This document shows, piece by piece, positions 36,047 to 58,648 of a DNA stretch of 64,000 nucleotides. The first letter of the stretch is position 1. Each line of letters starts with the position of its first letter. This DNA comes from Gimibacter soli (lineage in GTDB: Bacteria > Pseudomonadota > Alphaproteobacteria > Sphingomonadales > Kordiimonadaceae): NCBI RefSeq assembly GCF_028463845.1, contig NZ_CP116805.1:2108001-2172000 (forward strand), given 5' to 3'. The translations under genes were made by a program, and so were the position numbers. Below the pieces are notes generated by a model. It saw only the letters and a program-made list of their open reading frames with translations. It made no database searches and had not been told where the DNA came from.

Positions 36047-36202
36047 ATGGGCGTTTTAGTCGCATCGCAGCCAAATGGCCATAGAGATATGCATCTATTG
36101 TTGCCCATAATATAAATTATGCGTTATTTATACGAGGAACCCCCGGCTAGTCCCAATGATGTAGAATTACGGTGAGCCCGGGTGTGCGGTGACTTAGAAA
36201 TT

Positions 36203-36215
36203 GTCACTGAGTGAC
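36203..36215. repeat. 13-bp palindrome in the core/accessory junction
   Basis: GTCACT-G-AGTGAC is a perfect dyad inside the 282-bp gap 36,047-36,328. More GTGAC copies stand at about 36,190 and 36,280. Otherwise this gap shows only AT-rich sequence; it is downstream of the SIR2 operon and upstream of the YaiI-like gene. Confidence 0.4.
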
Positions 36216-36328
36216 TTTGGTTGTGTCATCTTGCGTGAGCGAGCAATTTTCGCAAAGTTCGAACGCATTTCGTAAGTGACGAATCTTTCCAAAAATTGCG
36301 AGTGGGTCCTTGTCATGAATTTTGCGGC

Positions 36329-37114
36329 CTATCGAAATTGGCTGTCTGGAACCCCTGGGGCTCTGCGGATATACCTAATGCCCTCTCGCTCGAAGACAAT
36401 GTCTCGTATAGGGTCCAACCGATTGTCCCAAAATTCCGGGTTTAATTGATCGCGCATCATAGCCGTCATCGCATCACCGTAACGATCCATAAGCTTTTCC
36501 CTAAAAGCCACTTCATGCGTCCATTTGTTTGATCCAATTTCTTGCCGAGCTAAACAATCTGCCTGAAAATGGACAACGATGCCTAAACCGCCCTGATGGC
36601 AAGAAGGCGTAATACAAAACGCGTAATCTATCTGAGAGCTATCGCGTCGAACGCGATCAATAATAAGTTTGCAAAAATTCTCGTGTGTCAGATAGCTGTA
36701 GCCATTGTTAACAACGATGAGAATCCCAGCATGACGTACTGCATTCAAATCTGCTCTGGTGTCTTTTATTTGCGCTGAAGCCTTTTTGAGCGGACCTTGA
36801 AGCGGCTTTGATATGATCTCTTCGATAGCTTCACGGAATGAAACGTCTACGCTATCAAGGTCAATATCGATCTCCGTCTTACCATCACTGCTGCGATCGA
36901 AAATTTTTGCTACTTTGTCTTGACGTCCTGGCTCCAGAATGCCCTCTTTCTCGATTAGTTTAAGCTCAAGAACGGCGTTGGGCCCAATATAGTCGGCGTT
37001 CTTTCTTCCTGCCTTTAGATGCATGAGCTCTTCGTATCGGTGCCACCCTAGATCCTTAATAATGCCGTCGATGAAACTTTCCGTCACCCTTGGCACAGGA
37101 AATAATGGTTCCAT
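36329..37114 (-). CDS. Unknown protein with PD-(D/E)XK-like motif, last gene of SIR2-HerA operon
   Basis: The 261-residue soluble protein has no close family I can name. Residues 41-52 read D-x8-ELK, set in a predicted strand-turn-strand (NADYIGPNAVLELKLI) as in PD-(D/E)XK nucleases. A later Cys/His pair (ITPSCHQGG) may be structural. GGGGAGG precedes the ATG at 37114. It is the fourth gene behind the SIR2, HerA and KTSC genes and probably co-transcribed. A nuclease role in the defence operon is inference; it could also be an unrelated cargo protein. Confidence 0.65.
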   Translation of the reverse strand: MEPLFPVPRVTESFIDGIIKDLGWHRYEELMHLKAGRKNADYIGPNAVLELKLIEKEGILEPGRQDKVAKIFDRSSDGKTEIDIDLDSVDVSFREAIEEIISKPLQGPLKKASAQIKDTRADLNAVRHAGILIVVNNGYSYLTHENFCKLIIDRVRRDSSQIDYAFCITPSCHQGGLGIVVHFQADCLARQEIGSNKWTHEVAFREKLMDRYGDAMTAMMRDQLNPEFWDNRLDPIRDIVFEREGIRYIRRAPGVPDSQFR

Positions 37115-37177
37115 GAGACCTCCCCTGCTTCTCTCAAGCAATATCAAACGGCTGCCTTAAGGTGGCTACTGGTATCT

Positions 37178-37400: not shown

Positions 37401-39320
37401 TTATTCCTCTCTGATTTTGGGACCTACGTTGGGATTCTGTCTTCTCCAAGCAGTTGTCAGCGATTGATAGCTCTTAGAGTCACGTCCCAGACGAATACCC
37501 CATCCGCCAGGAACCATAGAAATATCAGGGGGCAAATCGTCACAAACGATGGGGTCTAAACTGTCAGGTCTTCTATCGATAGGTGGCGCGATAATATTGG
37601 CACGCATAGGTAATCCAACCGCCTCCCCGACGATAATGGCTTCACCCGTCCGCAATATCGAAAGCATATTGGTTAGGCCATCGAGGTTATCGGAGAGCGT
37701 CCCTGTGACGTGTGATCTATCTGCTGCATTATTTAGGCGAAGCGCAAAAAACGTCCCGCACTGGGAGAGTATCGTGGGATTAATTTCAGACGGACGTTGA
37801 CTTACAACCATCGCGCCAATCCCATACTTCCTGCCTTCCTTTACAATTCGTTGGACGATTGAGGATGCAAGACCATTGTTGCTTTCATTGAGATAGTTGT
37901 GAGCCTCTTCCATGACGAGTAAAAGCGGTCGCTCCCGTCCGCCTTGTGAGAGATTACGTGCCCAGAACAGCCCGTCGTAGAATATCCGCAGAAGAATCCC
38001 AATGACGTCATTGGTTATGGAATGTGGCACCCCTGAAAGATCGAGAATGGTTATTGGTTTTTCTGAACCAATCCAATCCTCCATTAGGTCTGCGAGGTCG
38101 GCATCTGTTTTGCCACTTGAATCCACTGCCCATGGGCCTGGTTTGAGAAAAAAGTCAAATCTCGGGATCCGTAATTTTGCACCAAGGTTCTCAAGCTGAC
38201 CTCGAATGTTCAGAGGATTTGGGAGATAGTTGATTTTCTCAGGATCCCCGGTGAGGTTTTTAACCTTTTTGAAGACTGGTGCAATGCCGGCCATGGCGTC
38301 ACCCCGTAAAGCCGCACCCTCGGGATTGGTTTCGAAGGCCCAGTTCTCTGGCTCAGGCTTTTTATTGGTATCGGAATAATAGGTGCCAAACTCAGCGCAA
38401 TACAGCTCGTGCCAAAGCTCGTGCAAACTGAAAGGTACAGGTGTGTCGACATTCAAGGAATCCGGTGAGGCGCCTTCCTTGGGGTAAGCTTTTAATGCTT
38501 CTGATTTGTAATGAAGAATTTTTTCCAGAATTATGTTTCTTGCCTTCGATTCTGGCGAAATGTCCCCAAATGTAACTTTCAAGAGTTCGTCAAAGCTCAT
38601 AGCCCAATACGGCAGGTATAAGGGCTTTTCGTTGGCGTTCCTAGGATCAGGGGATATCCTATAAATGTTCGCACGATCACCTAATGCCTTGCCGTATTCA
38701 CCATGCAGGTCAATAACGACAATGCGGGCGGAGGGAAATCGCTCAACGTTGGAGAGCGCTGAGAGCAAAGACGCCACTGTAGTGGATTTACCTGAGCCGG
38801 TGGTTCCGACAACAGCAGAATGGCGTGTAACGAGTTTGTTTATATCAACCAATGCATCAATTGACTCTGCGCCAGCGATGTGGCCGACCTTGACAAGGTG
38901 ATTTTGTTTACCTTTTTGGCCATAAATCCCTGCGAGATCATTTTCGGATACTAAATGTACCTCGTCTTCGATGGTTGGGTATTGCGCGATCCCACGGTGA
39001 AAACTCCCGCCTTGATCTCCTTCTCCAACGAGCTGAATTCTGAGCCATCGATGCCCAAACGGTTCTTTTTCGAGCAATGCCTCGGGAACCGCGCCGGCGC
39101 CAACCTGCGTAACGATGCCAAACAGGCTTGTATACCCAATCGGAATTTTTACGAAACTACCAGGTTGACCTATGCGGTATGCCTGTCCGTCAACAAACGT
39201 CAGCCCAGAGAATTGGAAGTTGTTTAAGCGAACACTGACCGATGCCCCACTGACATCTTGCACAGTTCCAATCAATGTGGCCGAAGCGGAAGTTCTATTC
39301 TTCATGTTCGCCCCGCACAT
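37401..39320 (-). CDS. HerA-like hexameric ATPase (DUF87), SIR2 partner
   Basis: The 639-residue protein is a HerA/FtsK-superfamily ATPase. It has an N-terminal HAS-barrel (about 10-125), Walker A at 172-179 (GTTGSGKS), VIDLHGEYG at 203-211, Walker B LLLVMEEAH at 466-474 and sensor/arginine region VVSQRPSEINPTILSQ at 506-520. It starts inside the end of the SIR2 gene (26-bp overlap, or 11 bp if Met6 is used), so translation is coupled. In known SIR2-HerA systems the two proteins assemble into a large antiphage complex. Confidence 0.9.
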   Translation of the reverse strand: MCGANMKNRTSASATLIGTVQDVSGASVSVRLNNFQFSGLTFVDGQAYRIGQPGSFVKIPIGYTSLFGIVTQVGAGAVPEALLEKEPFGHRWLRIQLVGEGDQGGSFHRGIAQYPTIEDEVHLVSENDLAGIYGQKGKQNHLVKVGHIAGAESIDALVDINKLVTRHSAVVGTTGSGKSTTVASLLSALSNVERFPSARIVVIDLHGEYGKALGDRANIYRISPDPRNANEKPLYLPYWAMSFDELLKVTFGDISPESKARNIILEKILHYKSEALKAYPKEGASPDSLNVDTPVPFSLHELWHELYCAEFGTYYSDTNKKPEPENWAFETNPEGAALRGDAMAGIAPVFKKVKNLTGDPEKINYLPNPLNIRGQLENLGAKLRIPRFDFFLKPGPWAVDSSGKTDADLADLMEDWIGSEKPITILDLSGVPHSITNDVIGILLRIFYDGLFWARNLSQGGRERPLLLVMEEAHNYLNESNNGLASSIVQRIVKEGRKYGIGAMVVSQRPSEINPTILSQCGTFFALRLNNAADRSHVTGTLSDNLDGLTNMLSILRTGEAIIVGEAVGLPMRANIIAPPIDRRPDSLDPIVCDDLPPDISMVPGGWGIRLGRDSKSYQSLTTAWRRQNPNVGPKIREE

Positions 39321-40521
39321 TGCCGCTTAAACTCTTTAGAAGATTTGCAAATTGTAGGAAGTCGCCGAGACGCAATTCGCACTCTTGTCGGTCCTCATCA
39401 GCATTGGTATCTCTCGGTGGAATTAATATGCTCTCCATATCTGGAAGCTGTGTTCCCTCTTCAAAATACCACCCACCCAGCTTGCGTCCAATTATGGCTC
39501 CATCAAACGCAACTAAGCTGAGGTTGGGCGATTTGAGCGCGCAATCTCTAGCATTGGCGTATTTTGCATCGTCAATCTTCCCGTAGATAAAAGCGTAGAC
39601 CATCCCAGATGAATTGCTGGCTAAGCTTCGGCACAGCACATCATTTATATGTTCGTCTGAAAAGGAGTAACCTGCCAAGAACAACACAGAACCCGGTTTG
39701 AGCAGAAATTCTTTCAGACGATCTAGCATCGCCAAGTACGGCATTTTCCTGCTCTGGTCATATTTTAGGTGCGATGGATAGATTAAGTAGCGGCTATCAC
39801 TATCAACCTTGTCACTACGCACAACGTTTCCGTTGGAATCTAGGCGCCAATTGATAGAGCCATGCACCTTCCATAGACGCGTCCATCGTGCAGGAAGCAG
39901 TGATTCATTCTCGACAGCGCCAAGGTCAAAAAACGCAGCTTTTGTCCCTACAAATCCATCAAAATAGGGAGCCAACGATTCTTCAAGAGCCTGTTCAAGG
40001 AGCAGATCATAATTGGTTGTGAAGATGTGAACCGGAAAAACCCGTTCAAGTCCTCTCAGCCAGAGAGCCAGATTGTGGTAAGGTGTGTTCGCAGTCGGCA
40101 GGGCCTTATCAACGAGTTGAGAAATATTTTGAGAAATATGCCTGTCTAGCTCTTCGAGCTCGGCGTAATTAAAGCCTCTCACCTGCCCCTTGCCGGCGAC
40201 CGCGCGCAGAGCTCGTACAGCCGTCAAAATATCCTCAATATTGGGGTCCCGCTTACCATCCTCTTTTAAAAGTGTGACAAGTCTATCCCAGTGGCTTGGC
40301 GCTTGCGTTTTGGGTGCTGTGAGCCGCTCTCCAATACATGCTGTAAGTCCCGCAACGTCTGGAATAATTGGACCTGCATCATTTCCCTTTGGGTCCGTAA
40401 TACGTACAGAAAGTGGACACCCTGCTCCGATAAAAAAACCTAACGACTTCTTATTCTGAGAAAGTGCCTGACGAATATAAGTCAATTGCCGAACCACGTT
40501 GTGGGTCACCGTCTCCGCCAT
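39295..40521 (-). CDS. SIR2-domain NADase-type defence effector
   Basis: The 408-residue protein is a SIR2-superfamily member. Visible are FFIGAG at 29-34, TTNYD at 168-172, the candidate catalytic His220 in WKVHGSINW, and GYSFSDEHI at 284-292, the pattern seen in prokaryotic defence SIR2 proteins rather than protein deacetylases. No zinc ribbon is visible. Such proteins degrade NAD+ to abort infection. It is the first gene of a four-gene operon with HerA. GGGGGA precedes the ATG at 40521. Its base composition is AT-richer than the core genes. Confidence 0.88.
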   Translation of the reverse strand: MAETVTHNVVRQLTYIRQALSQNKKSLGFFIGAGCPLSVRITDPKGNDAGPIIPDVAGLTACIGERLTAPKTQAPSHWDRLVTLLKEDGKRDPNIEDILTAVRALRAVAGKGQVRGFNYAELEELDRHISQNISQLVDKALPTANTPYHNLALWLRGLERVFPVHIFTTNYDLLLEQALEESLAPYFDGFVGTKAAFFDLGAVENESLLPARWTRLWKVHGSINWRLDSNGNVVRSDKVDSDSRYLIYPSHLKYDQSRKMPYLAMLDRLKEFLLKPGSVLFLAGYSFSDEHINDVLCRSLASNSSGMVYAFIYGKIDDAKYANARDCALKSPNLSLVAFDGAIIGRKLGGWYFEEGTQLPDMESILIPPRDTNADEDRQECELRLGDFLQFANLLKSLSGNVRGEHEE

Positions 40522-40849
40522 CGCTTTCCCCCTGACGATTCATAAATTTATCACGACTCAAAATTGCATATAACTCTACCATTCAATTGGTGCTGTTGCC
40601 GCCAGATTTTACCATCGATAACTTTCACTTATCGTTGCTAATCGCCCCGGTTTTGCCCGGATTTCCCTGAAATCGACGCCGCAAAGGGCCGGATTCTGCG
40701 CCCTGCCCGCGCCGCCCCCGTCCCCTGAAAAAGCGCGCGCCCTGCCCGGTTTCGCCCCGCGCCCGGCCCGCCCATCCTGCCCGCTTCCCCGTGGCTTGGG
40801 GGCGCCGCCCCGCCATGCTATGCTGCAGCCCTTGGCCCTGGAGGATGCG
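40522..40849. other. Intergenic region between SIR2 operon and tyrosine recombinase
   Basis: This 328-bp gap holds the unseen promoters of two divergent genes. Its left third is AT-rich and resembles the defence operon; from about 40,640 it turns abruptly GC-rich with many C/G runs, like the tni block. The dyad at 40616-40634 lies at the switch. No convincing sigma-70 promoter was found. Confidence 0.6.
40616..40634. repeat. Dyad upstream of tyrosine recombinase 1 (candidate recombination core)
   Basis: CGATAA-CTTTCAC-TTATCG has 6-bp arms and a 7-bp centre. It is preceded by ATTTTACCAT and lies 215 bp before the recombinase start. The dyad at 49782-49800 has the same layout. Use as a strand-exchange core is inference. 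Confidence 0.5.
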
Positions 40850-41923
40850 ATGCCGCTATCCCGCGTGCGCCGCGGCGCCGCCGCGACCGGTTTTGCCGCC
40901 ACCGACGCCGCCGCCCAGCTGATCGGCTGGCTGCCGGTGCGCGATGCCCTCAAACGCGACCTCGAAGCGGTCTATGACCGCGCCGCGGCGCTCGCCCGCA
41001 TGGCGCGCGCCGACCATACCCGCCGCGCCTACAAAACCGCCTGGGGCCAATATGAGGCCTGGTGCCACGGCGTCGGCATCGCACCGCTGGCCGGCGATCC
41101 CGGCACGGTGGCGCTCTATCTCGCCACCCTGTCCCTCAAGGCCCGCCCGGCCACCCTGCAGGCCCGCCTCGCCGCGATCAGCGTCGCCCACCGCCTCGCC
41201 GGGGTGCCGCTCGATACCCGCCATGAAGCGCTGCGGCTGGTCCTCAAGGGCGCGCGGCGCGAACGCGGCGTCGCCCCGGGGCGCCAGGCCAAAGCCTTCA
41301 GCGCCGAGGACCTGGTGATGCTCGGCCCGCTCTATGGGGACAGCCCGCGCGAGCAGCGCGACAAGGCGCTGCTGCTGGTCGGTTTTGCGGCCGCACTCCG
41401 GCGCGCCGAACTCGCCGCCCTTGCCCGCGACGATGTGGCGATCGACCACCACGGCGCCCTGCAGCTCACCGTGCGCCGCGCCAAGGGCGACCCCGAGGGC
41501 GCGGGGGTACGCCTCACCGTCAGCCCGCATCCGGTCGCTGCGGCCTGCCCGGTCGCGGCGCTTGTCGCCTGGCTCTCGGTGCGCGGCGACGCCCCGGGGC
41601 CGCTCTTCTGGCGCGCTGACCGCGGCGGCGGGGTCCGCGCCCGGGCGATCGGTGCCCAGGCGGTCAATGGCGTGGTCAAGGACGCGGCGCGCCGCCTCGG
41701 CTATGACCCGGTGCTTTATAGCGGCCACAGCCTGCGCGCCGGCCTCGCCAGCGCTGCCGCCGACGCCGGCTGCGACCTCAAGGCGATCATGACCCAGACC
41801 CGCCTGAAGAGCCCGGCCCAGGCCGCGACCTATATGCGCGGCCGCCACGCCGGGCGCCTGACCGAGACGGTCTTTGCCGCAGCGGTACAGCACCAGGATC
41901 AGGCCCCCGGCCAGCCGCAATAG
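40850..41923 (+). CDS. Tyrosine recombinase of the tni block
   Basis: The 357-residue protein has a SAM-like N-terminal domain (about 50-140) and a tyrosine-recombinase catalytic domain with Arg184 (ALRRAEL), a lysine near 212, His293-x-x-Arg296 (SGHSLRAG) and Tyr328 (ATYMRG). GGAGG precedes the ATG at 40850. Its 3' end overlaps tniQ convergently by 25 bp. It resembles the second recombinase at 49886 in several blocks (CPVAA, GPLF, HSLR). It may be a resolvase for the tni element. Codon use is extremely GC-rich, suggesting transfer. Confidence 0.85.
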   Translation: MPLSRVRRGAAATGFAATDAAAQLIGWLPVRDALKRDLEAVYDRAAALARMARADHTRRAYKTAWGQYEAWCHGVGIAPLAGDPGTVALYLATLSLKARPATLQARLAAISVAHRLAGVPLDTRHEALRLVLKGARRERGVAPGRQAKAFSAEDLVMLGPLYGDSPREQRDKALLLVGFAAALRRAELAALARDDVAIDHHGALQLTVRRAKGDPEGAGVRLTVSPHPVAAACPVAALVAWLSVRGDAPGPLFWRADRGGGVRARAIGAQAVNGVVKDAARRLGYDPVLYSGHSLRAGLASAAADAGCDLKAIMTQTRLKSPAQAATYMRGRHAGRLTETVFAAAVQHQDQAPGQPQ

Positions 41924-42876
41924 GGCCAGACCATGGCACGGGCGGCGGGCCGGATCAGGCGGGCTTCGCTCTCCGGCCAGGCGCGAGCGCGGGCGACGAT
42001 CCAGTCCCAGGCCTCGTCGGTGACATGCTCCCGGCTCGGGACATAACCATCCTTGAGAATCTCGCCGGCCCAGAAAAAGGCATTATAGAGGACCCAGCGC
42101 CGGTACCCGGCGGGGGACAGTCCGAAATAGTCGATGGTCTCGACCTTGGTCGTGAAACAGGAGGGACACCGTCCCGGCAAAGCCTCGAAGAGCCCCGACC
42201 AGTCGCTGCGCCAGGTGCGGACCAGCAGCGGGCGCAACATGCTGGTCGCCGCGGACAGGCGCGAGAAGGAACAGAAATTGCGGTGCAGGAGGGTGACAAC
42301 GTCGCCGAGCGCGCCGCTTTCGAGCGACCGGATCGTCGCCGCGGCGGCAGGTCCCTGCCCCAGCGCCTGCAGGAACAGGAAGCGTTGCCCGAAGTCGAGG
42401 ATCTCACCAAGTTCATGAGGGCGGATCGCCAGATAGTTTTTAAAGGCCGGGGGGCGCTTCGGCGGACGGGTGTGCCAGGGCTCGACGCAATCGACGAGCG
42501 GCACGAGGTGGCGGTCGCAGAGCAGCGCCAGCCCTCGATGCCAGGCACCGCGCCGCCAGGGCTCCTCACCGCGCGCCAGGTCGTCGTGCCAGCAGACGGG
42601 GCAGATCTGGCACCGGTTGCCGCGGCTCAGCAAGCGCGCCCGAGGCTCGACCATGGCCGCAAGGCGCGCCAGCGGCAGGCCAGCCAGCGCCGCGAAGGCG
42701 CCGAGCCAGGGCGGCGCCTCGCGGTCGAGATCATGGTCGCCAAGCGACGGCGTGTCGAGCAGGCCGAAGTCATAGAGGAGCCTGCCCGGCGGCTGTTCAT
42801 AGCCTGCGGCGAAGCGGTCGAGCCAGCCGCCGAGCATTTCTCCCGGCTGGGGCCTGGGCACATAGCCGAACCGCAT
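41899..42876 (-). CDS. tniQ: TniQ-family transposition protein
   Basis: The 325-residue protein begins with a TniQ domain and carries the zinc-binding pattern C89/C92/C95 (CQICPVC) with C120-x2-H123 (LLCDRHL). TniQ/TnsD proteins recognise target DNA for Tn7-like and Tn5053/Tn402-like transposition. The start at 42876 is one base past the tniB stop; an in-frame extension upstream is only the tniB gene in another frame. The order tniA-tniB-tniQ is canonical. Confidence 0.85.
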   Translation of the reverse strand: MRFGYVPRPQPGEMLGGWLDRFAAGYEQPPGRLLYDFGLLDTPSLGDHDLDREAPPWLGAFAALAGLPLARLAAMVEPRARLLSRGNRCQICPVCWHDDLARGEEPWRRGAWHRGLALLCDRHLVPLVDCVEPWHTRPPKRPPAFKNYLAIRPHELGEILDFGQRFLFLQALGQGPAAAATIRSLESGALGDVVTLLHRNFCSFSRLSAATSMLRPLLVRTWRSDWSGLFEALPGRCPSCFTTKVETIDYFGLSPAGYRRWVLYNAFFWAGEILKDGYVPSREHVTDEAWDWIVARARAWPESEARLIRPAARAMVWPYCGWPGA

Positions 42877-42877
42877 C

Positions 42878-43750
42878 TCAGCGCTCGTCGTCCGGATCGG
42901 CCTGCGTGCCGAGAATGGCGTCGCGGCCGAGATGTTCCGTGCGGTTGCGGATCGCCGCGGTGGCGAGGTCGCGTAGATAATCAATCACCCCGCCGGTCGA
43001 GGCCTTGCCCTGATCGAGGATCTCCTGCAGCAGCACTTTCTCGCGGGCGAGCGCCGGGTCGACGCCCTCGCGCAGCGGCAGGGTGGCCAGGATGGTAGCG
43101 ACAAACTGGCGAAAGGAATCGTCCAGCTTCCATTGACGGAGCTCGAATATGTCGAAGCGATGATAGAGCTGCTCCTCGCCCTGGATCATGGGCAGCAGCG
43201 TTTTCTGGCTGCCAAAGGCGACGATCGAGGCCTGGAGGCCCTCGCTGAGCCGCTGGAGATTGCGGACGATCGTGGCAAAGTCGGCCTTAGTGGGGGTATT
43301 GATCAGGCCCTGGAACTCGTTGATCAGGATCACCTTCGCCCCCATGTTGCCGAGACGGTTCAAGCAGAAATGGAAGAGGATTTCGTCGCGCATGCCGGTA
43401 TGGCCAAGGCCGGCGGCGACGAGCAGGCCGCGGAGGAATCCGTCGGCGGTCGGGGCGTTGGGCATTTCATAGACCAGCGCCGGGCGCTGGTCGTGCGGGC
43501 CGCTGATCTGTCCGACCCCCCGATTTATTTCGCGTCCGACGTGATCAAGCAGGCGCGATTTTCCCATATTGGGATCGGCGGCGACCAGGATCCAGCGGGG
43601 TCGGCTGCGGCGGGGCATCAAGGCGCAGTCGAGGATGGCCTTGCAGATCGGCATGATCATCGGCAGGTCGATCCAATGGTCGCGCCACAAGGCGTCGATC
43701 CGCACCTCGGCCGGGCGCTTCAGAAAATCGTCATCAGAGGTCATCGTCAT
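42878..43750 (-). CDS. tniB: TniB-family AAA ATPase
   Basis: The 290-residue protein is a TniB/TnsC-like ATPase that regulates the transposase. Walker A is AADPNMGKS at 57-65. The Walker B strand reads ILINEFQ (141-147), with Asn in place of the usual Asp, which could lower ATP hydrolysis. It overlaps the tniA 3' end by 17 bp, so the genes are coupled. TniB marks target DNA with TniQ and recruits TniA. Confidence 0.87.
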   Translation of the reverse strand: MTMTSDDDFLKRPAEVRIDALWRDHWIDLPMIMPICKAILDCALMPRRSRPRWILVAADPNMGKSRLLDHVGREINRGVGQISGPHDQRPALVYEMPNAPTADGFLRGLLVAAGLGHTGMRDEILFHFCLNRLGNMGAKVILINEFQGLINTPTKADFATIVRNLQRLSEGLQASIVAFGSQKTLLPMIQGEEQLYHRFDIFELRQWKLDDSFRQFVATILATLPLREGVDPALAREKVLLQEILDQGKASTGGVIDYLRDLATAAIRNRTEHLGRDAILGTQADPDDER

Positions 43751-45371
43751 GCCTCCAACTCAGCAGCGGCAGGGGCTGCCGGGTCAATCGGGGTGGGGTG
43801 CGCTTGGGGGCCGGTTTTGACCGGGCGATCTGTCGCTGGCGCTGCCGGGCGTTCGTTCGGACCTGGTCGTCAAGCTCATAGAGCGCCCCCGTCAGCTCCT
43901 CCTCAAGATCCTTGAGTTTCTGGTCATGATAGTGTGCTTTGGTGCGCTGCCGATCCCTTTGCGTGGCGTCAAGATGGGCAAAGGTCGGCGTTTCCCATGG
44001 CGCCAGCGGTACCTCGAAATAGGTCTGGGAAAAGTCGAGGGAAACATAGACCCGGGTCATGTCGGTACGGTTGAAGCCGGCGCGCACGCGCTGGCCAACA
44101 TGGGGCGCCAGACGGGGGGACTGGTAGGTGCGGCGGTGCACCGTGATCCCCTGTCCGCGGACCAGCGGCGACTTGTGTTCGAGGAGCGCGTGGCGCACCG
44201 CATCCGGGTCGGGGCGAACCAGATGCGGGGGAATATTGGCCTCGAGCTCCTTGAATTTCTGGTAGGGGCTGCAGCCCAGGGCCCGGTGCGGTGTGACATG
44301 GTAGCGCAGGATGTTGAGCACCAGCCAAGTCTCGAACTCCTCGAATGTATAGGCCGCTTCTTTCATCGGGTCATAGCCTTTCTTGGCGACGACATTGCTG
44401 AAGCTGGTCCCCTTGATCATATGCAACTCTCCCATCATACGGCCGATCAGGCGTTCGATATGACCGCCATGATGGGGCTCGCCGACCGGCCGGTAATGGG
44501 GGTGGACCCCCAACCGCACGAGCGCTTCAGGGAGCTCGCCAAATTTGAGGTCGGTGCCATTGTCGGTCCCAAGATTCTGGATCAGGAAGGATGTCGGCCA
44601 GGGGTCATCGATGCCGCGCTCGTGGAAGGGCGCCAGAGAGATACCGGCGCGCTCGATGATCGACCGTTTGGGGCAGCAACACATGAGGATGGTGAGAACA
44701 TTGGTGCGGCCGGTCGGTGGCTTGATATTGATGCCATAGCCGAGGACCATGCGGGTGGCGATATCGACGACCAGGGTCAGCCACAGGCGCAGGATACCGA
44801 GCCCGCAGCCGCGCATATCGACGAAGGCATCGGCCAATGTATGGTCCATCTGGGCATATTCCCCCGGAATGTCGGTGCACAGTTTGCCGGGGAGCCATTT
44901 GAAGGTGTGCGGATCCGCTTTGATCTTGCTGGTTTTTGCCAAGGTTTTTTTGGAGACGGCTTGGGCCCTGCGCCGGAATGTTCTCTGGTCGATGCCGCGT
45001 GTTTTCAAGCGGCGACAGAAGCGGTTGACCAGCTTGGCCATGTCGCGGATCGAACGCTCTTCCCGGAACGGCAGATAGCGCTCGTGGAGCACCCGTTGCA
45101 GGGCATATTCCGTCAGCTCCGGCAGGCGAGCGGCAGGAGCCGTTTTGGGGCGCCGGTAACGGGCCGGCAGATGGGTGGTGAGGAATGGCGCCTTGAGATG
45201 CGCCCGCACATAGCGATAGACCGTTCGCGGCCGCACCCCGAGTTGCTCGGCCGCCTGCCGGGCCTGGCGTTGGGACACCGGGCCCAGCGCGATCGCCGCA
45301 ATGATCTTATGCCGCCGTTTCGCTTCCGCCAGAACCGCTGCGGGAATATTGGTTTCGTCAGGATAGGTCAC
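43734..45371 (-). CDS. tniA: TniA DDE transposase
   Basis: The 545-residue protein is a Mu/TniA-type transposase with N-terminal helix-turn-helix region (about 30-60), an RNase-H-like core and C-terminal Mu-type beta-barrel. The catalytic triad is Asp176 (AQMDHT), Asp270 (GTDNGTD) and Glu306 (GHIERL), a D-x35-E spacing. I chose GTG at 45371 because AGGAGG lies 6 bp upstream; the reading frame continues 47 codons further without similarity. It catalyses DNA strand transfer for the tni element. Confidence 0.9.
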   Translation of the reverse strand: MTYPDETNIPAAVLAEAKRRHKIIAAIALGPVSQRQARQAAEQLGVRPRTVYRYVRAHLKAPFLTTHLPARYRRPKTAPAARLPELTEYALQRVLHERYLPFREERSIRDMAKLVNRFCRRLKTRGIDQRTFRRRAQAVSKKTLAKTSKIKADPHTFKWLPGKLCTDIPGEYAQMDHTLADAFVDMRGCGLGILRLWLTLVVDIATRMVLGYGINIKPPTGRTNVLTILMCCCPKRSIIERAGISLAPFHERGIDDPWPTSFLIQNLGTDNGTDLKFGELPEALVRLGVHPHYRPVGEPHHGGHIERLIGRMMGELHMIKGTSFSNVVAKKGYDPMKEAAYTFEEFETWLVLNILRYHVTPHRALGCSPYQKFKELEANIPPHLVRPDPDAVRHALLEHKSPLVRGQGITVHRRTYQSPRLAPHVGQRVRAGFNRTDMTRVYVSLDFSQTYFEVPLAPWETPTFAHLDATQRDRQRTKAHYHDQKLKDLEEELTGALYELDDQVRTNARQRQRQIARSKPAPKRTPPRLTRQPLPLLSWRHDDDL

Positions 45372-45524
45372 CTGAAGCCTCCTCGGGTTGCGCCGATCGC
45401 ACCGGCGGGCAGCGCCGCAGCCCGGGACGGACCCTTGACGGCCGTGGCAGAAAAGGAAGACGGCGCCCTGCCCCTGGTTGCGCGCTGGCGCTTGCCGCCA
45501 GGCCAAGGTCAAACGTCCTCTTGC

Positions 45525-45544
45525 CGCGAAAAGTGTCTTTCGCG
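45525..45544. repeat. Dyad in the tniA upstream region
   Basis: CGCGAAA-AGTGTC-TTTCGCG has 7-bp arms. It is followed by TTGCTTTCCGCCCCG, which resembles the TTGCTAATCGCCCCG that follows the dyad at 40616. This lies in the 286-bp gap 45,372-45,657, which otherwise holds the tniA promoter region and no gene. Confidence 0.4.
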
Positions 45545-45623
45545 TTGCTTTCCGCCCCGAAATGTGGAAGCTTTAGGTGTCTTATCCGGGCTTCCGTACC
45601 CGTTGCGGATCTCTGGTTTACAG

Positions 45624-45656
45624 CCGCCTGAACCTGCAAAGTTCAGGCGGTTCTGT
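45624..45656. terminator. Hairpin downstream of the coiled-coil/winged-helix gene
   Basis: The arms CCGCCTGAACCT and AGGTTCAGGCGG-like (seen as GCCGCCTGAACCTGCAAAGTTCAGGCGG) form an 8- to 9-bp stem beside A/T-rich flanks, just past the stop at 45658. It could end that transcript before tniA. Confidence 0.55.
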
Positions 45657-45657
45657 A

Positions 45658-46116
45658 TTAGGGGGTCACGCCATGCGCTGCTCCGTTGGTCGCTCGCTCG
45701 CTATACCAGCGATGCGCTGGGTGATCGATCATGCGGCAGGCCCGTCCGGCTCGCTCGAGATCGCGCAAATACAGATAGATGCGGTGGGGATTGGCCCGAA
45801 TGCCGGCGACCTTCAGGCGCTCCATCAGGTCGCGCGTCGTGGCGGCCTCGCTCTTGCGACACGGCAAGAGGGCGGCAACATGATCGCGCACGCCAGATGT
45901 CGCGGCGTCGATCGCCGGACTTGCCGTCGGGGCCTGGTCAAGGTCGGCGTTCGCCAGCAGGTCCTTCAGGGCCTCGATGCCGCCGGCTTTCAGCAGGCGG
46001 TCGTGCTCACATTTCTGCAATTGCTGTTTCAGCTGCTGTTCTCTCTCGAGCAGGCTGTCATGGTCGCGGGTCAAGGCGTCGAGCATCTGCACGACCCGAC
46101 CTGAGAGTTCGGCCAT
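45658..46116 (-). CDS. Hypothetical protein, coiled coil plus winged-helix-like C terminus
   Basis: The 152-residue protein has an N-terminal coiled coil (about residues 5-50, LTRDHDSLLEREQQLKQQLQKC) and a C-terminal helical domain (about 85-135, DLMERLKVAGIRANPHRIYLYLRDLERAG) that resembles a winged helix. I do not know the family. It sits upstream of tniA in the same direction and may be an accessory DNA-binding protein of the element, perhaps analogous to TnpT in the neighbouring module. That link is inference. Confidence 0.55.
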   Translation of the reverse strand: MAELSGRVVQMLDALTRDHDSLLEREQQLKQQLQKCEHDRLLKAGGIEALKDLLANADLDQAPTASPAIDAATSGVRDHVAALLPCRKSEAATTRDLMERLKVAGIRANPHRIYLYLRDLERAGRACRMIDHPAHRWYSERATNGAAHGVTP

Positions 46117-46226
46117 GTGCGTCTCCTCTCCTGTTCTGCGGAGAGCCTATTAGACGCCTTGAGAGCTCATCGATCAACAGAAAAGTGAGGCCGCTGACGG
46201 TGATAGCTTTTTTAAAACAAAGACTT

Positions 46227-46248
46227 GCGATACGGTAGTGCGTATCGC
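46227..46248. repeat. Dyad between the tni block and DUF2130 gene
   Basis: GCGATAC-GGTAGTGC-GTATCGC has perfect 7-bp arms and an 8-bp centre. It lies in a 196-bp gap and shares the CGATA/TATCG arm theme with the dyad at 40616, but spacing differs. Confidence 0.45.
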
Positions 46249-46312
46249 GAAATTTGGGAAAAAAACGGCCGTGCTGCGGACGTCATTATCTCTTCGGGAC
46301 TGTTCTTCGTGA

Positions 46313-47662
46313 TCACTCGCCCGATGGGTTGCCCTTCTTTTTTAGCTCCGCGAACTTGCCCGCCATGGTCGGGTTGCCTTTGGTCAGCTTTTTGATTGTC
46401 ACATCCTGTGCTTTGTCGTTGGCGAGGCGCAGGTTGCGGTCGGTACCAAGCAGGGCTTCCTTGGTTTTCTGAAGATGGTCGATGGACTTGTCGATTTCGG
46501 CAATCGCCGTCTGAAAACGTCGCGACGCGAGGTCAAAGTTCTTGCCGAAGGCTGTTTTGAAAGCCTCCAGTTCGGCTTCAAAATTGGCGACATCGATATT
46601 CTGCGCTTTCACCAATGCAAGCTCGGATTTGTATTTGAGCGAATTCATGGCAGCGTTGCGCAGCAGCGTGATGATCGGGATGAAGAACTGCGGGCGCACC
46701 ACATACATTTTCGGATAGCGGTGGAACATATCGACGATCCCGGTGTTGTAAAGTTCGCTCTCGGGCTCGAGCAACGAGACCAGGACCGCATATTCGCAGC
46801 CTTTTTCGGTACGGTCCTTGTCGAGTTCCTTCAGGAAATCCTCGTTCCTGCTTTTTGTGGCAGTGCGATCACTCTCATTCTTCATCTCGAACATGATCGA
46901 GACGATTTCGGTGCCGGCGTCATCCAAGTCCCGGAAAATATAGTCGCCCTTGCTGCCGCTCCGGGCGTCATTATCCTTCTCAAAATAGGCCTTCGGGAAA
47001 GCCGTCGCCCGGATGCGATTGAACTCGGTCTCACAATGCTGCTCGAGGGTTTCGCCCACCATCTTGGTTGAAAGGCGTGCCTTCATGTCCTTCAGGCGCT
47101 CGATCGCATCGTCGCGGTCCTTGATCTGGGTCTCATACCGTTCTTTGAGGGCCTTTTCGGAGAGTTGTTTCTCGAGCTCTGCCTGCTTGAGTCCGTTCTG
47201 CAGGTCGTCGCGCTCTCTCTCGATCGCGCTGATCGCCTTGGTCACCGCGAGTTCCTGCGCAACATTGAAAGCGTCCAGCCTGGCCTGCAGGTCCTGGATG
47301 GCGGCGTCCTTGGTGTTGACCACCTTCTGCAGCTCGCTTACCAGCGTCTCGCGCTCCTTGTCGGCGGATCCCAAAGCCTCAGTGACGGCGAGTTGACGGG
47401 CAATCTCCCCGGCTTCCAGTTTGGCCTTCAGGGCTTGAATTTCAGCGTCTTTGGAGGACGAAGACTGTTGGTATTCCTTCTCTGCTTTGGCCGTCGCGAG
47501 TTCAACGGCGGTCCGCTTGTCGCGCTCTGCGAGATCGAGGCGCTCGTGCAGCTGCTTTTCGAATTCGTGGTCACGGACTTGCTTCAGAATCTCTGCATAC
47601 CCGGCGCCATCGATTTTGAAAGCCTTGCCACAGTGGGGACACACAATTTCCTGCATAGCCAT
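46313..47662 (-). CDS. DUF2130 coiled-coil protein with nuclease-like motif
   Basis: The 449-residue protein begins with a zinc-knuckle-like CPHC (8-11), continues as a long coiled coil (about 30-200) and ends with the DUF2130 domain. That domain contains D240 in GSKGDYIFR and E259-x-K261 in IMFEMKNE, a PD-(D/E)XK-like pattern. Function of the family is not established; a nuclease role, possibly in defence, is plausible. It lies downstream of an XRE regulator and of the CACTAACAT repeats. An AAAGG precedes the start. Confidence 0.85.
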
Positions 47663-47829
47663 GCGCCTTTCTTGAGTATTCAGTTCAACGAGGATTTCTG
47701 AATGTGTCGAGCTTTACGTTAGGTTGTATGGAACCACTCGGCAACTGCCTGTTCGCTGAATGGATTCAGCCGCGCTGGCAGTCGAGGCAAGATCGACTTC
47801 ACGGCATCCGACTGTCAAAACCTGAAAGG

Positions 47830-47874
47830 TCACTAACATCTGGCTGCACACTAACATTGATGGTGTTAGTGTGC
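47830..47874. promoter_or_regulatory. CACTAACAT repeat cluster with perfect hairpin (candidate operator)
   Basis: CACTAACAT occurs twice in direct order (47831 and 47849) and once inverted. The last two make a perfect dyad GCACACTAACA/TGTTAGTGTGC with a 7-bp centre at 47846-47874. It covers the 3' end of the XRE gene and lies upstream of the DUF2130 gene. It could be an operator or a terminator. Confidence 0.5.
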
Positions 47875-48255
47875 GGGGTCTGTGCTAGTGACGTGAAATG
47901 ATTGGGGAAAGCGATTTCGATTTCCCTCTTCTGGCGGATCTTCGGTGTCGCCCAATCCGCCAAGCGAGACCGGTACATGGCCCGGGAATTCGGCAACGAG
48001 ACTCAACCGCCCGCCCATTGCCTCCACATAGCTGCGCAGTGTCGAAAGCATCAGGTCGCTGCGCTTCTCCATCTTGGCGATGCTTGCCTGGCGAATCCCC
48101 AGCGTCTTGGCCAACTGAACCTGAGTTAATTGCTTGGCTTTGCGGAGTTCTTGAAGCGTCAGATATTCTGCATGTAACAGGTCAGCGGCTGCGTCGATGC
48201 GTTGGCGCCGCGCGGTCGGTAATTTCTCGAGCTTTTCTGTCAGGGATTTGCTCAT
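47866..48255 (-). CDS. XRE-family helix-turn-helix regulator (antitoxin-like)
   Basis: The 129-residue protein has a Cro/C1-type helix-turn-helix at about residues 45-90 (LRKAKQLTQVQLAKTLGIRQASIAKMEKRSD) followed by LRSYVEAMGGRLSL, as in HigA-like antitoxins. AGGAGG is placed 7 bp before the ATG at 48255. No toxin gene is seen next to it, so it is either a solitary regulator or a remnant of a toxin-antitoxin pair. A dyad in its promoter suggests autoregulation. Confidence 0.82.
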   Translation of the reverse strand: MSKSLTEKLEKLPTARRQRIDAAADLLHAEYLTLQELRKAKQLTQVQLAKTLGIRQASIAKMEKRSDLMLSTLRSYVEAMGGRLSLVAEFPGHVPVSLGGLGDTEDPPEEGNRNRFPQSFHVTSTDPAH

Positions 48256-48316
48256 TTTCTGTCCTCCTGGCATGCGGGACTTGGATCTGGCACTCCCTAC
48301 ATCTCATACGCCATAA

Positions 48317-48334
48317 TATAGCCCAAAGGCTATA
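48317..48334. promoter_or_regulatory. Dyad upstream of the XRE gene (candidate operator)
   Basis: TATAGCC-CAAA-GGCTATA has 7-bp arms, 62 bp upstream of the XRE start, in AT-rich sequence suited to a promoter. Such dyads are typical autorepression sites. Confidence 0.5.
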
Positions 48335-48436
48335 GTTTCGCCAGTGTAGGCCTAGTGACCGGGTAGCTGCGAAAAACGACATCTGAGAGAACAAATATAG
48401 AACACTTCTGAATTCCCCTTCTAACGACGATGACGT

Positions 48437-48664
48437 TCACAGCAATTTCCTCTTTTTAATCCAGGCAAGAGCTATTTCATCCATGGCCGTGGCGGGAATA
48501 GCCACCGTTACATTGGCATCATAGCCTGGAATCCCTTTTTCCACAGCAAACATGCTGGCGTGCTCCACCAGGAGATGCACATGCGTCATCGGCTCATCGC
48601 GCAATGTGACTGCCTCGAACAAATGAAAGTTGGCACCGGAACAGATCGTCGATTTCGTGCTCAT
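48437..48664 (-). CDS. Small protein coupled to tnpT-like gene
   Basis: The 75-residue protein has no motif I recognise; it contains HVHLLVEHAS and DEIALAWIKKRKLL. Its ATG overlaps the stop of the tnpT-like gene by 4 bp (ATGA), so it is co-translated with it. The tight coupling supports a real gene, but function is unknown. Confidence 0.6.
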   Translation of the reverse strand: MSTKSTICSGANFHLFEAVTLRDEPMTHVHLLVEHASMFAVEKGIPGYDANVTVAIPATAMDEIALAWIKKRKLL

Positions 48665-49689
48665 TTCACTTGCTTCTCCCCTTGAGTTTTAGCGGTTGTG
48701 CCGTGATGAGTTCCCGCCTTTTCAAACACGGCAAGAATCTTGGCCGTAGTCGCCACTTCAGCCTTGAGGCTTGCAAGCTCAACTTCCTGGGACCGGGTAT
48801 GTGCTTGAACAGCTTCGTATTTGTTTTCGAGTTGATCATACCGACGCTTGAGAGAATCATATTTCTTCTCTGTGTCGGTAAGTTTTTGCAGCTCGTCGGC
48901 CTGGCTCGCCAAAGTCGCGGTCTGGGTCTGGTTTTCCACCTTGAACTGCTCCACGGCAGCGTGAGCATCGGCCAGCCTGGTCGCGAGTGCGCTATTTTCC
49001 TTAACCATGATGGACAGTTCTTCCTGTTTTCCCGCAAGTTTCTGCGACAGGTCACGCTTTTCCACAAGCAACTGCTGCATCTGATGTTCGAACCGGCGGT
49101 TCTCCGCGTCCCTCTGCTCTTTGACGGATTGTCGATAATGCTCCAGGCTGTCGCGGGCATGCTGGTGTTTCTCCTCCAGCGAGGCTATTTGCGATGCCTT
49201 TTCGGACAGCCGCGCGTCCAGGTCTTTATTACTGAGTTCCAGCTTCCTTTTGTCTTGAGCGGCTTCATCTAATGCCCTCTTGCTGCCGGCATGCCGTTCC
49301 TGTTCCTCCTGAAGGTGGTTTGAAAGCCCACTGATCTCCCTATTTCGTTCCGCTAGTTGCGTTTCGCGCTCGGCAATTTCCCGAAACAGCGCAGCTACCT
49401 GTTCGCCATGATCCGTTCTGGCCTTGTCGACCACGGCCTGCGCCTCCTTTTGCAGTTGGTCTGCAAGGTTGGCCACCATGGTGCGCAATGTATCACTCAG
49501 AAAGGCATCGGCATCGATCTTGGTACCCGCTTCGGCTTCCAACTCCCGTAAATAACGGTGAATAGTGGTTTTGGAGCCAGTATTGCCGAGTTCGGCACGG
49601 ACGGCGTCGATGGATGGATTTTCGCCGCGAGCCAGCAATGCCTGCCGTGCCTGCTTGACTTTTTGCTTGTCGATTCCTGTGCGTGCCAC
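48661..49689 (-). CDS. TnpT/KfrA-like coiled-coil DNA-binding protein
   Basis: The 342-residue protein starts with a KfrA-type DNA-binding domain (ARTGIDKQKVKQARQALLARGENPSIDAVRAELGNTGSKTTIHRYL, residues 2-46) followed by a coiled coil of about 280 residues. The GTG start at 49689 has AAGGA 8 bp upstream. It is divergent from a tyrosine recombinase with about 200 bp between. That arrangement matches tnpT-tnpS of Tn4651-type transposons, where TnpT aids TnpS at the resolution site. A plasmid-type KfrA role is the alternative. Confidence 0.8.
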   Translation of the reverse strand: MARTGIDKQKVKQARQALLARGENPSIDAVRAELGNTGSKTTIHRYLRELEAEAGTKIDADAFLSDTLRTMVANLADQLQKEAQAVVDKARTDHGEQVAALFREIAERETQLAERNREISGLSNHLQEEQERHAGSKRALDEAAQDKRKLELSNKDLDARLSEKASQIASLEEKHQHARDSLEHYRQSVKEQRDAENRRFEHQMQQLLVEKRDLSQKLAGKQEELSIMVKENSALATRLADAHAAVEQFKVENQTQTATLASQADELQKLTDTEKKYDSLKRRYDQLENKYEAVQAHTRSQEVELASLKAEVATTAKILAVFEKAGTHHGTTAKTQGEKQVK

Positions 49690-49781
49690 GCCATTTTCCT
49701 TTTTCGTAACATAATACGTAATACGTATATACATACTATAATGGCACTTAAAATTGGAAATAAAATTACAATTTTAACCAT

Positions 49782-49800
49782 TGATAATGGAAGATTATCA
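49782..49800. repeat. Dyad between tnpT-like and tnpS-like genes (candidate resolution core)
   Basis: TGATAA-TGGAAGA-TTATCA has 6-bp arms and a 7-bp centre. It is preceded by ATTTTAACCAT, almost the same as the flank of the dyad at 40616. It lies 85 bp before the tnpS-like start, where the resolution site of TnpS/TnpT systems is expected. Confidence 0.55.
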
Positions 49801-49885
49801 CATGTTATAGGCCAATATGCTGAAAACTAGGGAAAATCTGGTATGATACCTCAGCCACAGGCAGAATGGATAAAGTGAGACCTTC

Positions 49886-50833
49886 ATGAGCCGTATCGAA
49901 GAGTATGTAAGGGCAGCCACCCGGGACAGCACACGCCGGAGCTATGCGTCGGCGATTGAACATTTTGAGGTCAACTGGGGTGGCATGCTGCCCGCGACAG
50001 CCGACAGGATCGCCCATTATTTGGCGGACCATGCCGGCAGCCTTACTCTCAATACTCTCAGGCAACGCCTTGCTGCTATCGGTCGGTGGCACGTAGAACA
50101 TGGATTTGTCGATCCAACAAAGTCGACTCTGGTCAAACGTATCCTGAAGGGCATCGCTGAGTTGCACCCGTATCGGGAGAAGCAGGCGGCGCCGTTGCAA
50201 CTGGTGCAGCTTGAAGCACTCGACAACTATTGGCATGACGGGCTGCAAGCGTGCGCTTCCCTTCCTGGTGAAACACTCAGGCTGCTGCGCAACCGGGCCC
50301 TGATGCTGCTCGGTTTCTGGCGCGCCTTTCGTAGCGACGAATTGTGCCGGATTGAGGTTCAGCATATTGAGTTTGATGCCGATGCGGGGATGACGCTCCA
50401 TTTATGGCGCTCCAAGAGCGATCACAGCCATAGTGGAACGACCTATCGGTGCCCGGCCCTCACCCGACTATGCCCGGTGGCGGCATGCCGGGCTTGGCTC
50501 GAAGCCTCTGGTATCAAGACTGGACCCTTGTTCCGAGGTGTCGATCGGTGGGGTCACCTGCGAAATACTGCACTGCACCCCAATAGTATCGTACCGCTTT
50601 TACGAAACGAACTGGCTGCCGCGGACATAGAGGGCGGTCTATATAGCAGCCACTCACTCCGGCGCGGTTTTGCCTCCTGGGCCAACTCAAACGATTGGGA
50701 TGTCAAGTCGCTGATGGAATATGTCGGCTGGAAGGATGTCAAGTCGGCATTACGCTATGTGGACACTTCAGACCCCTACAAAAAACGCCAGATAGAAGCC
50801 GGCCTCCAGAAGCATGCGGCGAAAGATGCCTGA
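49886..50833 (+). CDS. TnpS-like tyrosine recombinase (cointegrate resolvase)
   Basis: The 315-residue protein has a SAM-like core-binding domain (about 5-90) and a complete tyrosine-recombinase site: Arg149 (FRAFRSDEL), Lys177, His256-x-x-Arg259 (SHSLRRG), Trp282 and Tyr291 (RYVD). It fits TnpS of Tn4651-family transposons, which resolve cointegrates. It is divergent from the coiled-coil gene and lies upstream of the mercury operon. No Tn3 transposase is seen in the window. Confidence 0.82.
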   Translation: MSRIEEYVRAATRDSTRRSYASAIEHFEVNWGGMLPATADRIAHYLADHAGSLTLNTLRQRLAAIGRWHVEHGFVDPTKSTLVKRILKGIAELHPYREKQAAPLQLVQLEALDNYWHDGLQACASLPGETLRLLRNRALMLLGFWRAFRSDELCRIEVQHIEFDADAGMTLHLWRSKSDHSHSGTTYRCPALTRLCPVAACRAWLEASGIKTGPLFRGVDRWGHLRNTALHPNSIVPLLRNELAAADIEGGLYSSHSLRRGFASWANSNDWDVKSLMEYVGWKDVKSALRYVDTSDPYKKRQIEAGLQKHAAKDA

Positions 50834-50905
50834 CAATGGGGACGACATTCTCCCCACAGAGGCCGGTCCCTGCCCAATTGGTCTAAGGGCGCATAGTACG
50901 CGCCG

Positions 50906-51316
50906 CTAGTCTTCCAGAAGCTGATCGATGATGGCGCAATCCGGAGTGTCACCGCCGCTGCATTCCGTCGCCATGCCTTCAAGCGCTGCCTGAAGCTTGA
51001 GAAGGTCCACCACCTTGCTTTTGATCAGTGCCACGTTCGCAAGCGCCATGTCTTTCACATCGTCACAGGCAAAGGTGCCGTCCACCATCTCCAACAGCCC
51101 GGCCACTTCCTGATTTGTGAAACCCAAGGCGCGCGACCGGCGGATGAACTTCAGCCGTTTCAAATGATCCGTGGAATAACACCGATAACCAGAACCCGTG
51201 CGCGGCGGGTCGGGCATCAGGCCGATCTTCTCATAAAACCGGATGGTCTCCAGATTGACCCCGCTCTCTTTCGCGAGCGTTCCTCTCGTGAATTCACGTT
51301 TTTGCGATACGGCCAT
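50906..51316 (-). CDS. merR: MerR-type metal-responsive regulator (mer operon)
   Basis: The 136-residue protein has a MerR helix-turn-helix (about 8-75) with LETIRFYEKIGL, a dimerisation helix and three cysteines placed for metal binding: Cys84, Cys119 and Cys127 (CSGGDTPDC). It is divergent from merT across an operator with 19-bp spacing. The Cys-x7-Cys loop is one residue shorter than in classical MerR, so the specificity is inferred from the neighbouring genes. Confidence 0.88.
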   Translation of the reverse strand: MAVSQKREFTRGTLAKESGVNLETIRFYEKIGLMPDPPRTGSGYRCYSTDHLKRLKFIRRSRALGFTNQEVAGLLEMVDGTFACDDVKDMALANVALIKSKVVDLLKLQAALEGMATECSGGDTPDCAIIDQLLED

Positions 51317-51323
51317 TTTCCTG

Positions 51324-51354
51324 TTGATCCTGTATTTACTACAGGGTGTAGCCT
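51324..51354 (+). promoter_or_regulatory. MerR-regulated mer promoter (19-bp spacer)
   Basis: TTGATC and TAGCCT are separated by 19 bp, and between them lies the dyad CCTGTA-TTTAC-TACAGG. The overlong spacer is the hallmark of promoters that MerR untwists. It points to merT. Confidence 0.88.
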
Positions 51355-51421
51355 ACAGGACATGAGACCATCGGTGCAAGCCGGGGCGATGAAATCAACG
51401 AAACTGTGATGAAGAATATTT

Positions 51422-51793
51422 ATGAGCGACATGGAACAAACAGATGGAACGAAAAACTGGGCCGCGAGCTTTGGCGTGATCGGTGCCATTCTGGCGTCTT
51501 CCTGCTGCATCCTGCCCTTTGTCTTCCTGATGCTGGGCGTCAGCGGCGCCTGGATCGGCAACCTGACGGTACTGGAACCCTACAAAGACTATTTTGCGGC
51601 GGTGACGCTGGTCTTCCTCGGGGTCGGCTTCTGGCAGGTCTATATCAAACCCAAAAGGCAGTGCGCCGAGGGTTACTGCGCAACCCCCAGGTCGGACCGG
51701 ATCATCAAAATCATTCTGTGGGTGTCGGCGGTGCTGGTTCTGCTGGCGCTGACAGTCGACATCTGGGCACCCATCCTTGGCAACTATATTTGA
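51422..51793 (+). CDS. merT: Mercuric transport protein MerT
   Basis: The 123-residue inner-membrane protein has three hydrophobic helices. The first holds the Cys pair in ASSCCILPF, and the loop between helices two and three has QCAEGYC, matching MerT, which brings Hg(II) from MerP to the cytoplasmic reductase. The start is ATG at 51422 or the Met three codons later; no strong ribosome-binding site is visible. Confidence 0.93.
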   Translation: MSDMEQTDGTKNWAASFGVIGAILASSCCILPFVFLMLGVSGAWIGNLTVLEPYKDYFAAVTLVFLGVGFWQVYIKPKRQCAEGYCATPRSDRIIKIILWVSAVLVLLALTVDIWAPILGNYI

Positions 51794-51808
51794 TACGGAG
51801 TAAGCAAC

Positions 51809-52135: not shown

Positions 52136-52136
52136 G

Positions 52137-53582: not shown

Positions 53583-53620
53583 AGCGGGAGAGGGTATAAA
53601 GAGCAGCGAGGAGAGCCGAG

Positions 53621-54178: not shown

Positions 54179-54188
54179 TTGCCTATTG

Positions 54189-54518: not shown

Positions 54519-54612
54519 CTACCTCCCGATCATTGGTACGCCCAATGGCCCCCCCTTGCGCCAGCAGCAGCTCACCATCCCATTTGGTCCGTTGGTTTGA
54601 AATCAGCCGCTC

Positions 54613-55035: not shown

Positions 55036-55046
55036 AAATTTTCTCC

Positions 55047-55077: not shown

Positions 55078-55114
55078 TTAATACAAGAAACCGACAGTGA
55101 TTCGAGGAAGAAAA

Positions 55115-58639: not shown

Positions 58640-58648
58640 GAGGCGTAC

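Follow-up and report, generated by a model that had tools for sequence, protein, structure and literature searches.

What would resolve the cointegrates of a tniA-tniB-tniQ (TniABQ) transposon in which a tyrosine recombinase gene lies where a serine resolvase gene (tniR) is usual? The question is raised by a locus of Gimibacter soli within contig NZ_CP116805.1, positions 2,108,001 to 2,172,000. This stretch of 64,000 nucleotides is referred to as the window. Coordinates are in window numbering, and the element extends past the window end. An original prediction for this DNA had reported tniA-tniB-tniQ with a convergent tyrosine recombinase at 40850-45371, no serine recombinase, and hence a swap of resolution system. 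We conclude that the element is probably a replicative TniABQ transposon of the Tn5053/Tn7-like kind, whose cointegrates would be resolved by the tyrosine recombinase (TyrRec) at its core site, with TniQ-dependent targeting beside a palindrome.

A tyrosine recombinase gene convergent with tniABQ

Pfam identified all four predicted genes. These, and the core site, are as follows.

40616-40634, + strand: palindromic core CGATAA-CTTTCAC-TTATCG, proposed res site of TyrRec
40850-41923, + strand: TyrRec, tyrosine recombinase of 357 aa (Pfam Phage_integrase), proposed cointegrate resolvase
41899-42984, - strand: tniQ (Pfam TniQ, 52 bits)
42878-43750, - strand: tniB, AAA ATPase (Pfam TniB, 75.8 bits)
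43734-45371, - strand: tniA, DDE transposase (Pfam Mu-transpos_C; NCBIfam IS481/IS21-like rve region)

By Pfam matches and open reading frame (ORF) layout, tniA, tniB, and tniQ are one operon and TyrRec is convergent with tniQ. The 3' ends of tniQ and TyrRec overlap by 25 bp. Therefore, no transposon end is possible between them. The closest solved structure to TyrRec is Cre (E about 1e-30), and R184, K212, H293, R296, and Y328 are invariant across the five elements described below. Iterated HMMER found no serine recombinase in the whole 36.8-kb element or in two other delimited elements, and there was no Pfam match to one among the scanned ORFs of the window element. The original prediction was borne out on this point as well.

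Conservation of the linkage

We searched 30 genomes of the same family for close TyrRec homologues. They were present in three other family genomes (G441, G447, and G427), each time convergent with tniA-tniB-tniQ. The home genome (3.59 Mb, one contig) also has a second, divergent element with the same gene order at 1.619-1.625 Mb (copy 2), in which TyrRec is 62% and TniA 35% identical to the window proteins. The order tniA-tniB-tniQ-TyrRec is found in 5/5 elements from 4 genomes of the family. In maximum-likelihood trees, the five elements form one clade for TniA and one for TyrRec, each with 100/100 support. The inner branching is discordant: the window TyrRec groups with copy 2 and G441, and the window TniA with G447 and G427. 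Because these inner orders differ, the trees suggest exchange of the recombinase module between elements.

TyrRec relatives outside the five-element clade have no tni genes nearby. Relatives occurred in 18 of 385 genomes of the class, without tni genes within about 8 kb except in the home genome. Among the closest of those outside the clade are genes on plasmids, near partition or replication genes. Other alphaproteobacterial tni loci that were examined lacked a TyrRec of this group, and contig-collection scans with TniQ and with the TyrRec pair returned no relatives.

In a related alphaproteobacterial element, on an Azospirillum plasmid (L072), exactly this convergent slot is occupied by a serine recombinase, as a resolution-system swap predicts. 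Together with the linkage in all five elements, this supports the swap that had been proposed. The original prediction had also held that chance adjacency would be indicated by a relative that carries tniR and lacks the tyrosine recombinase. One was found, but outside the TyrRec clade, and this argues for replacement and not for chance. By this comparison, the adjacency of TyrRec to tniABQ is not accidental. The swap as such is not new: tyrosine resolvases are already known in Tn5053-clade Tn7-like transposons (PMC8649781).

On two plasmids (L054 4749-8545 and L074 5117-8644), the neighbor of a tniABQ element on its tniA side is a gene for a tyrosine recombinase. It may be that other tni elements are drawn to tyrosine-recombinase loci.

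A palindromic core 5' of the recombinase gene

The motif CGATAA-N7-TTATCG lies 5' of TyrRec in 5/5 elements, with about 0.1 chance matches expected per genome. GATAA-N7-TTATC was found 5' of TyrRec at 9 of 22 distant TyrRec loci versus 0 of 348 control windows. Genome G439, which has a distant TyrRec and no tni genes, contains one core, just 5' of that TyrRec gene. Three family genomes without a TyrRec match (G400, G388, and G430) had no CGATAA-N7-TTATCG core. Because the motif is conserved 5' of TyrRec, enriched at distant TyrRec loci, and absent from the controls, it most probably serves as the cis site for this family of recombinases.

Most elements have similar spacers (GTGATAG, GTGAAAG, and GTGTAAG), and that of G427 is GCACAAG. 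The G427 element has two cores flanking a 4.4-kb segment, and the second (L115 14543-14561) has a different spacer. This second core is a possible trace of cargo capture or exchange.

Two further cores stand apart from the five elements. A solitary CGATAA-N7-TTATCG at 2864665-2864683 of the home genome (L124 9666) has no TyrRec or tni gene nearby. The other, in G447 (C28:89443; L125 9444), is just 5' of a degraded TyrRec gene, and the locus is apparently a dead copy of the TyrRec-core module. We also considered the palindrome GATAC-N8-GTATCGCGAA, which lies 5' of tniA in the window element and in copy 2, as the resolution site. It was rejected, and the core 5' of TyrRec preferred, because it is missing from the examined regions of the G441 and G427 elements. 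Its only perfect matches in the home genome are at window positions 46225-46251 and at L004 6943-6969.

Extent of the element and its position beside dif

The element spans 36,756 bp, from 36183 to 72938 (the right end is genome position 2,180,938). The interval originally predicted was correct for the four genes, and it covers only the transposition and resolution core. The left boundary has the following features.

36098-36128, - strand: chromosomal dif, AATAACGCATAATTTATATTATGGGCAACAA, with a 17-bp core at 36106-36122 and its center at 36114; insertion target
36178-36182: left CCGGG of the 5-bp target-site duplication (right copy at 72939-72943, beyond the window)
36183-36260, + strand: cargo-side end (LE), beginning 5'-TGTGCGGTGACTTAGAAATTGTCACTGAG, with a TniA-site-like repeat, GACTTAGAAATTGTCACT, at 36191

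The right (tniA-side) end at 72938 was located via the CCGGG duplication and reads 5'-TGTAAGCGGACTTAGAAAATGTCACTGAG. The ends are of the TGT/ACA type and agree at 25 of 32 positions (19 at most after shuffling). Repeats like GACTTAGAAATTGTCACT cluster at both, with further copies at the right end. Over 76 bp, the cargo-side end shares about 72% identity with ends from G427 and G447. Duplications also flank the G427 element (ATGGC, around 205790-221392) and copy 2 (CCCGG, around 1602150-1632998 of the home genome), and in all three elements the delimited ends enclose TyrRec and the tni genes together. No long terminal repeats turned up near tniA or elsewhere in the region searched, because the tniA-side end sits 27 kb away. 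No Rfam family or tRNA was found at the loci searched. A Xer-integrated island (IMEX) was rejected in view of the 5-bp duplications and DDE-type ends.

The site dif occurs once in nearly every chromosome, is bound by XerCD, and functions in chromosome dimer resolution. The dif sequence at this locus is single-copy in the home genome. Relatives without the element have the same dif sequence directly downstream of the same gene block, and by this comparison dif is native there. The distance from the cargo-side end to the dif center is 69 bp in the window, 54 bp in G427, and 55 bp in G447. These are separate insertions, because their flanking 5-mers differ and the G447 end is on the opposite side of dif. 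The probability that three ends fall by chance at most 70 bp from a single-copy site is negligible. The congener G441 (flank 88% identical) lacks this insertion, and in its genome 132 bp separate dif from the native right flank. Therefore, the window insertion falls in this 132-bp interval. That native flank corresponds to home-genome sequence starting at 78292, and unrelated further DNA lies between dif and the native flank, at 72.9-78.3k.

On balance, we favor the view that this TniABQ branch hunts dif: TniQ would recognize dif, probably with XerC/XerD bound, and the cargo-side end would be placed 54-69 bp away on either side. A literature search that covered few subscription journals found no report of dif as a target of TniABQ elements. 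Such targeting appears to be undescribed so far.

Proposed mechanism and alternatives

The DNA itself shows a conserved gene order, the core, the element ends with their duplication, and a position at dif; from these we infer a replicative mode, resolution by TyrRec, and sensing of XerCD through TniQ. TniA, with help from TniB and TniQ, would join the TGT/ACA ends to the target, with a 5-bp duplication as the result. Because no TnsA homologue was found among the ORFs scanned, transposition would be replicative and would lead to cointegrates, as for TnsA-less Tn7-like elements (PMC11406308, PMC8649781). The Cre-like TyrRec would resolve these at CGATAA-N7-TTATCG 5' of its own gene, so that TyrRec and the core would stand in for the serine TniR/res pair. 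TniQ-dependent targeting would set the cargo-side end 54-69 bp from a palindrome, which in this branch would be dif. It would probably be sensed while occupied by XerCD, as Tn5053 recognizes res that has resolvase on it (work cited in PMC11406308).

Several points weigh against this mechanism. The claim that TyrRec has complete catalytic residues stood for the five listed above and failed for the sixth active-site position. This position (Trp315 in Cre; His or Trp expected) is Leu319 in 5/5 elements, and with Leu there, catalysis is predicted but not assured. The failure to find a TnsA family member applies to the main ORFs, which were those scanned with Pfam. A duplication was searched for and not found at the G441 element, and the G447 element is delimited at its cargo-side end only. 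Finally, the copy 2 and G441 elements are not at dif. They are 60 and 56 bp, respectively, from GTGTTATA-GGGGG-TATAACAC (the 56 bp being counted from this same sequence), so a position at dif does not hold throughout the clade.

No insertion beside a serine-resolvase res site was encountered; of the five, three are beside dif and two are beside the other palindrome. Judged from these positions, the clade puts the same cargo-side end 54-69 bp from a palindrome.

The GTGTTATA-GGGGG-TATAACAC sequence is at L106 4045-4070 (genome 1633048-1633068). The G441 copy of this palindrome is interrupted by an insertion that has a transposase gene on one side. In G441, three copies of the tniA-side end lie there between the native flanks, an arrangement that marks repeated insertion at one locus.

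It is conceivable, although unlikely, that TyrRec chiefly swaps cargo by recombining the cores of different elements or circles, which would shuffle the genes beyond the core. Conserved sequence among the elements does stop at the core, with entirely different cargo past it, G427 has two cores around 4.4 kb, and the TniA and TyrRec trees conflict within the clade. However, the G427 cores have unlike spacers (GCACAAG and GTGATAG), which is usually not tolerated in tyrosine recombination, and the other cargoes showed no second core at their far ends. Cargo exchange is also compatible with resolution and so is not an alternative in kind. A different role for TyrRec, as a target selector that binds dif-like DNA and guides TniQ and not as a resolvase, seems improbable to us. 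The target selector of Tn6022, TnsF, does derive from a tyrosine recombinase (PMC10293859), inner ATAA/TTAT arms are common to the TyrRec core and dif, and elements of the clade sit at dif. However, the catalytic chamber is gone from TnsF, which also bears zinc fingers at its N terminus (PMC10293859), whereas TyrRec keeps R-K-H-R-Y intact and matches only Phage_integrase in Pfam. Furthermore, the same TyrRec clade is in elements at two different targets, and its core is 5' of its own gene, with the motif also at relatives without tni genes.

Two other explanations deny a link between the element and what lies beside it. Most TyrRec relatives stand alone, as described above, and some plasmid tni elements adjoin unrelated tyrosine recombinase genes, so TyrRec might be unrelated cargo, or a neighbor beside which a tni element chanced to insert. 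We find this scarcely credible, because TyrRec is convergent with tniQ in all five elements, these are a single clade in both trees, and TyrRec is within the delimited ends together with the tni genes in three of them. The position by dif might instead reflect a terminus hotspot or XerCD-type integration, which the additional unrelated DNA between dif and the native flank would fit. This is very unlikely in our judgment. The 5-bp duplications and TGT/ACA ends show DDE transposition, and in three genomes it is the cargo-side end that is turned toward dif, 54-69 bp away, with different flanking 5-mers and on both sides of the site.

Cargo and a nested transposon

The remaining features of the element that lie in the window are as follows.

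36329-37147, - strand: 272-aa protein of unknown family, with no Pfam, NCBIfam, or PADLOC match
37401-39320, - strand: HerA-type helicase (Pfam DUF87/HerA_C; PADLOC HerA, 517 bits), part of a predicted anti-phage HerA-SIR2 pair
39295-40521, - strand: SIR2-domain protein of the HerA-SIR2 pair (Pfam SIR2_2; PADLOC SIR2, 433 bits)
45372-64000: remainder of the element in the window, with a DUF2130 gene, a helix-turn-helix gene, and parts of a nested Tn3-family metal-resistance region
48661-49734, - strand: nested TnpT-like gene (Pfam KfrA_N)
49783-49799: palindrome GATAA-TGGAAGA-TTATC, between the TnpT-like and TnpS-like genes
49886-50833, + strand: nested TnpS-like tyrosine recombinase (TyrRec 2; Pfam Phage_integrase), divergent from the TnpT-like gene

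The 272-aa protein gene adjoins the HerA-SIR2 pair and could encode a third component. PADLOC also found defense cargo in the relatives, MkoA/B in G441 and a Pycsar cyclase in G447.

A Tn3 transposase gene at 64950-67076 (L136) is next to an insertion sequence with an rve transposase, and the nested segment (48661-67076) also carries a mer operon and resistance-nodulation-division (RND) efflux genes. TyrRec 2, the KfrA_N protein, the palindrome, and the Tn3 transposase look like a nested TnpS/TnpT-type Tn3 mer transposon. TyrRec 2 would belong to that transposon and not to the tni core, and would be distinct from the tni resolvase.

Discussion

Variation by exchange of the recombinase is already known. 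The proposed targeting of dif is the less expected part, and it lies outside the interval first predicted. Hunting of res sites has so far been described for serine-resolvase sites on plasmids. If our reading is true, these elements sense one tyrosine-recombinase site as a target and use another to resolve, and dif targeting gives them a safe, conserved home. What TniQ senses (sequence, bend, or bound recombinase) would be directly testable with known proteins. For TnsA-less Tn7-like systems, the five elements would also supply a defined pair of TyrRec and core by which cointegrates could be resolved. Their defense (HerA-SIR2, Mko, and Pycsar) and metal-resistance cargo may explain why such genes pile up at the replication terminus in this group.

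Among known systems, Tn5053/Tn402 (TniABQ-R, the res-site hunters) share the tniA-tniB-tniQ operon, TGT/ACA ends with arrays of transposase sites, 5-bp duplications, the lack of a detected TnsA, and a target adjoining a site-specific recombination site. They differ in having a serine TniR and res where these elements have a tyrosine recombinase and a palindromic core. Their target is a plasmid res, whereas here it is chromosomal dif or another palindrome, and our TniA shares about 30% identity or less with the TniA proteins found on plasmids. The Tn7-like clade 3 elements with a tyrosine tnsR (Benler et al. 2021, PMC8649781) are TnsA-less with a tyrosine resolvase; here, too, a tyrosine recombinase is the proposed resolvase, and the main ORFs scanned gave no TnsA match. 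As in such tnsR-type transposons, the tyrosine recombinase here is inside the element and conserved as a core gene. In contrast to that study, the present analysis delimits the cis site, the ends, the duplications, and the dif target.

The TyrRec-core layout matches those of TnpI/irs and TnpS-TnpT/rst (PMC7157771, PMC4619425). Those Tn3-family systems, from Tn4430 and Tn4651, respectively, are, as proposed here, replicative transposons with a tyrosine resolvase and a palindromic core beside its gene. However, the transposase here is TniA with TniB and TniQ and not Tn3 TnpA, and TyrRec has no TnpT-like helper alongside. TnsF of Tn6022 and Tsy (PMC10293859) likewise represent proteins of the tyrosine-recombinase fold encoded with tni/tns genes, but the TnsF of Tn6022 has no catalytic activity, carries zinc fingers, and has comM as its target, whereas TyrRec keeps R-K-H-R-Y and has its own core. 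Finally, Cre-loxP and plasmid dimer resolution include the closest solved relatives of TyrRec and share inverted arms around a short spacer. Unlike Cre-loxP, TyrRec has a core with a 7-bp and not an 8-bp spacer, has Leu at the Trp315 position, and is linked to a transposon.

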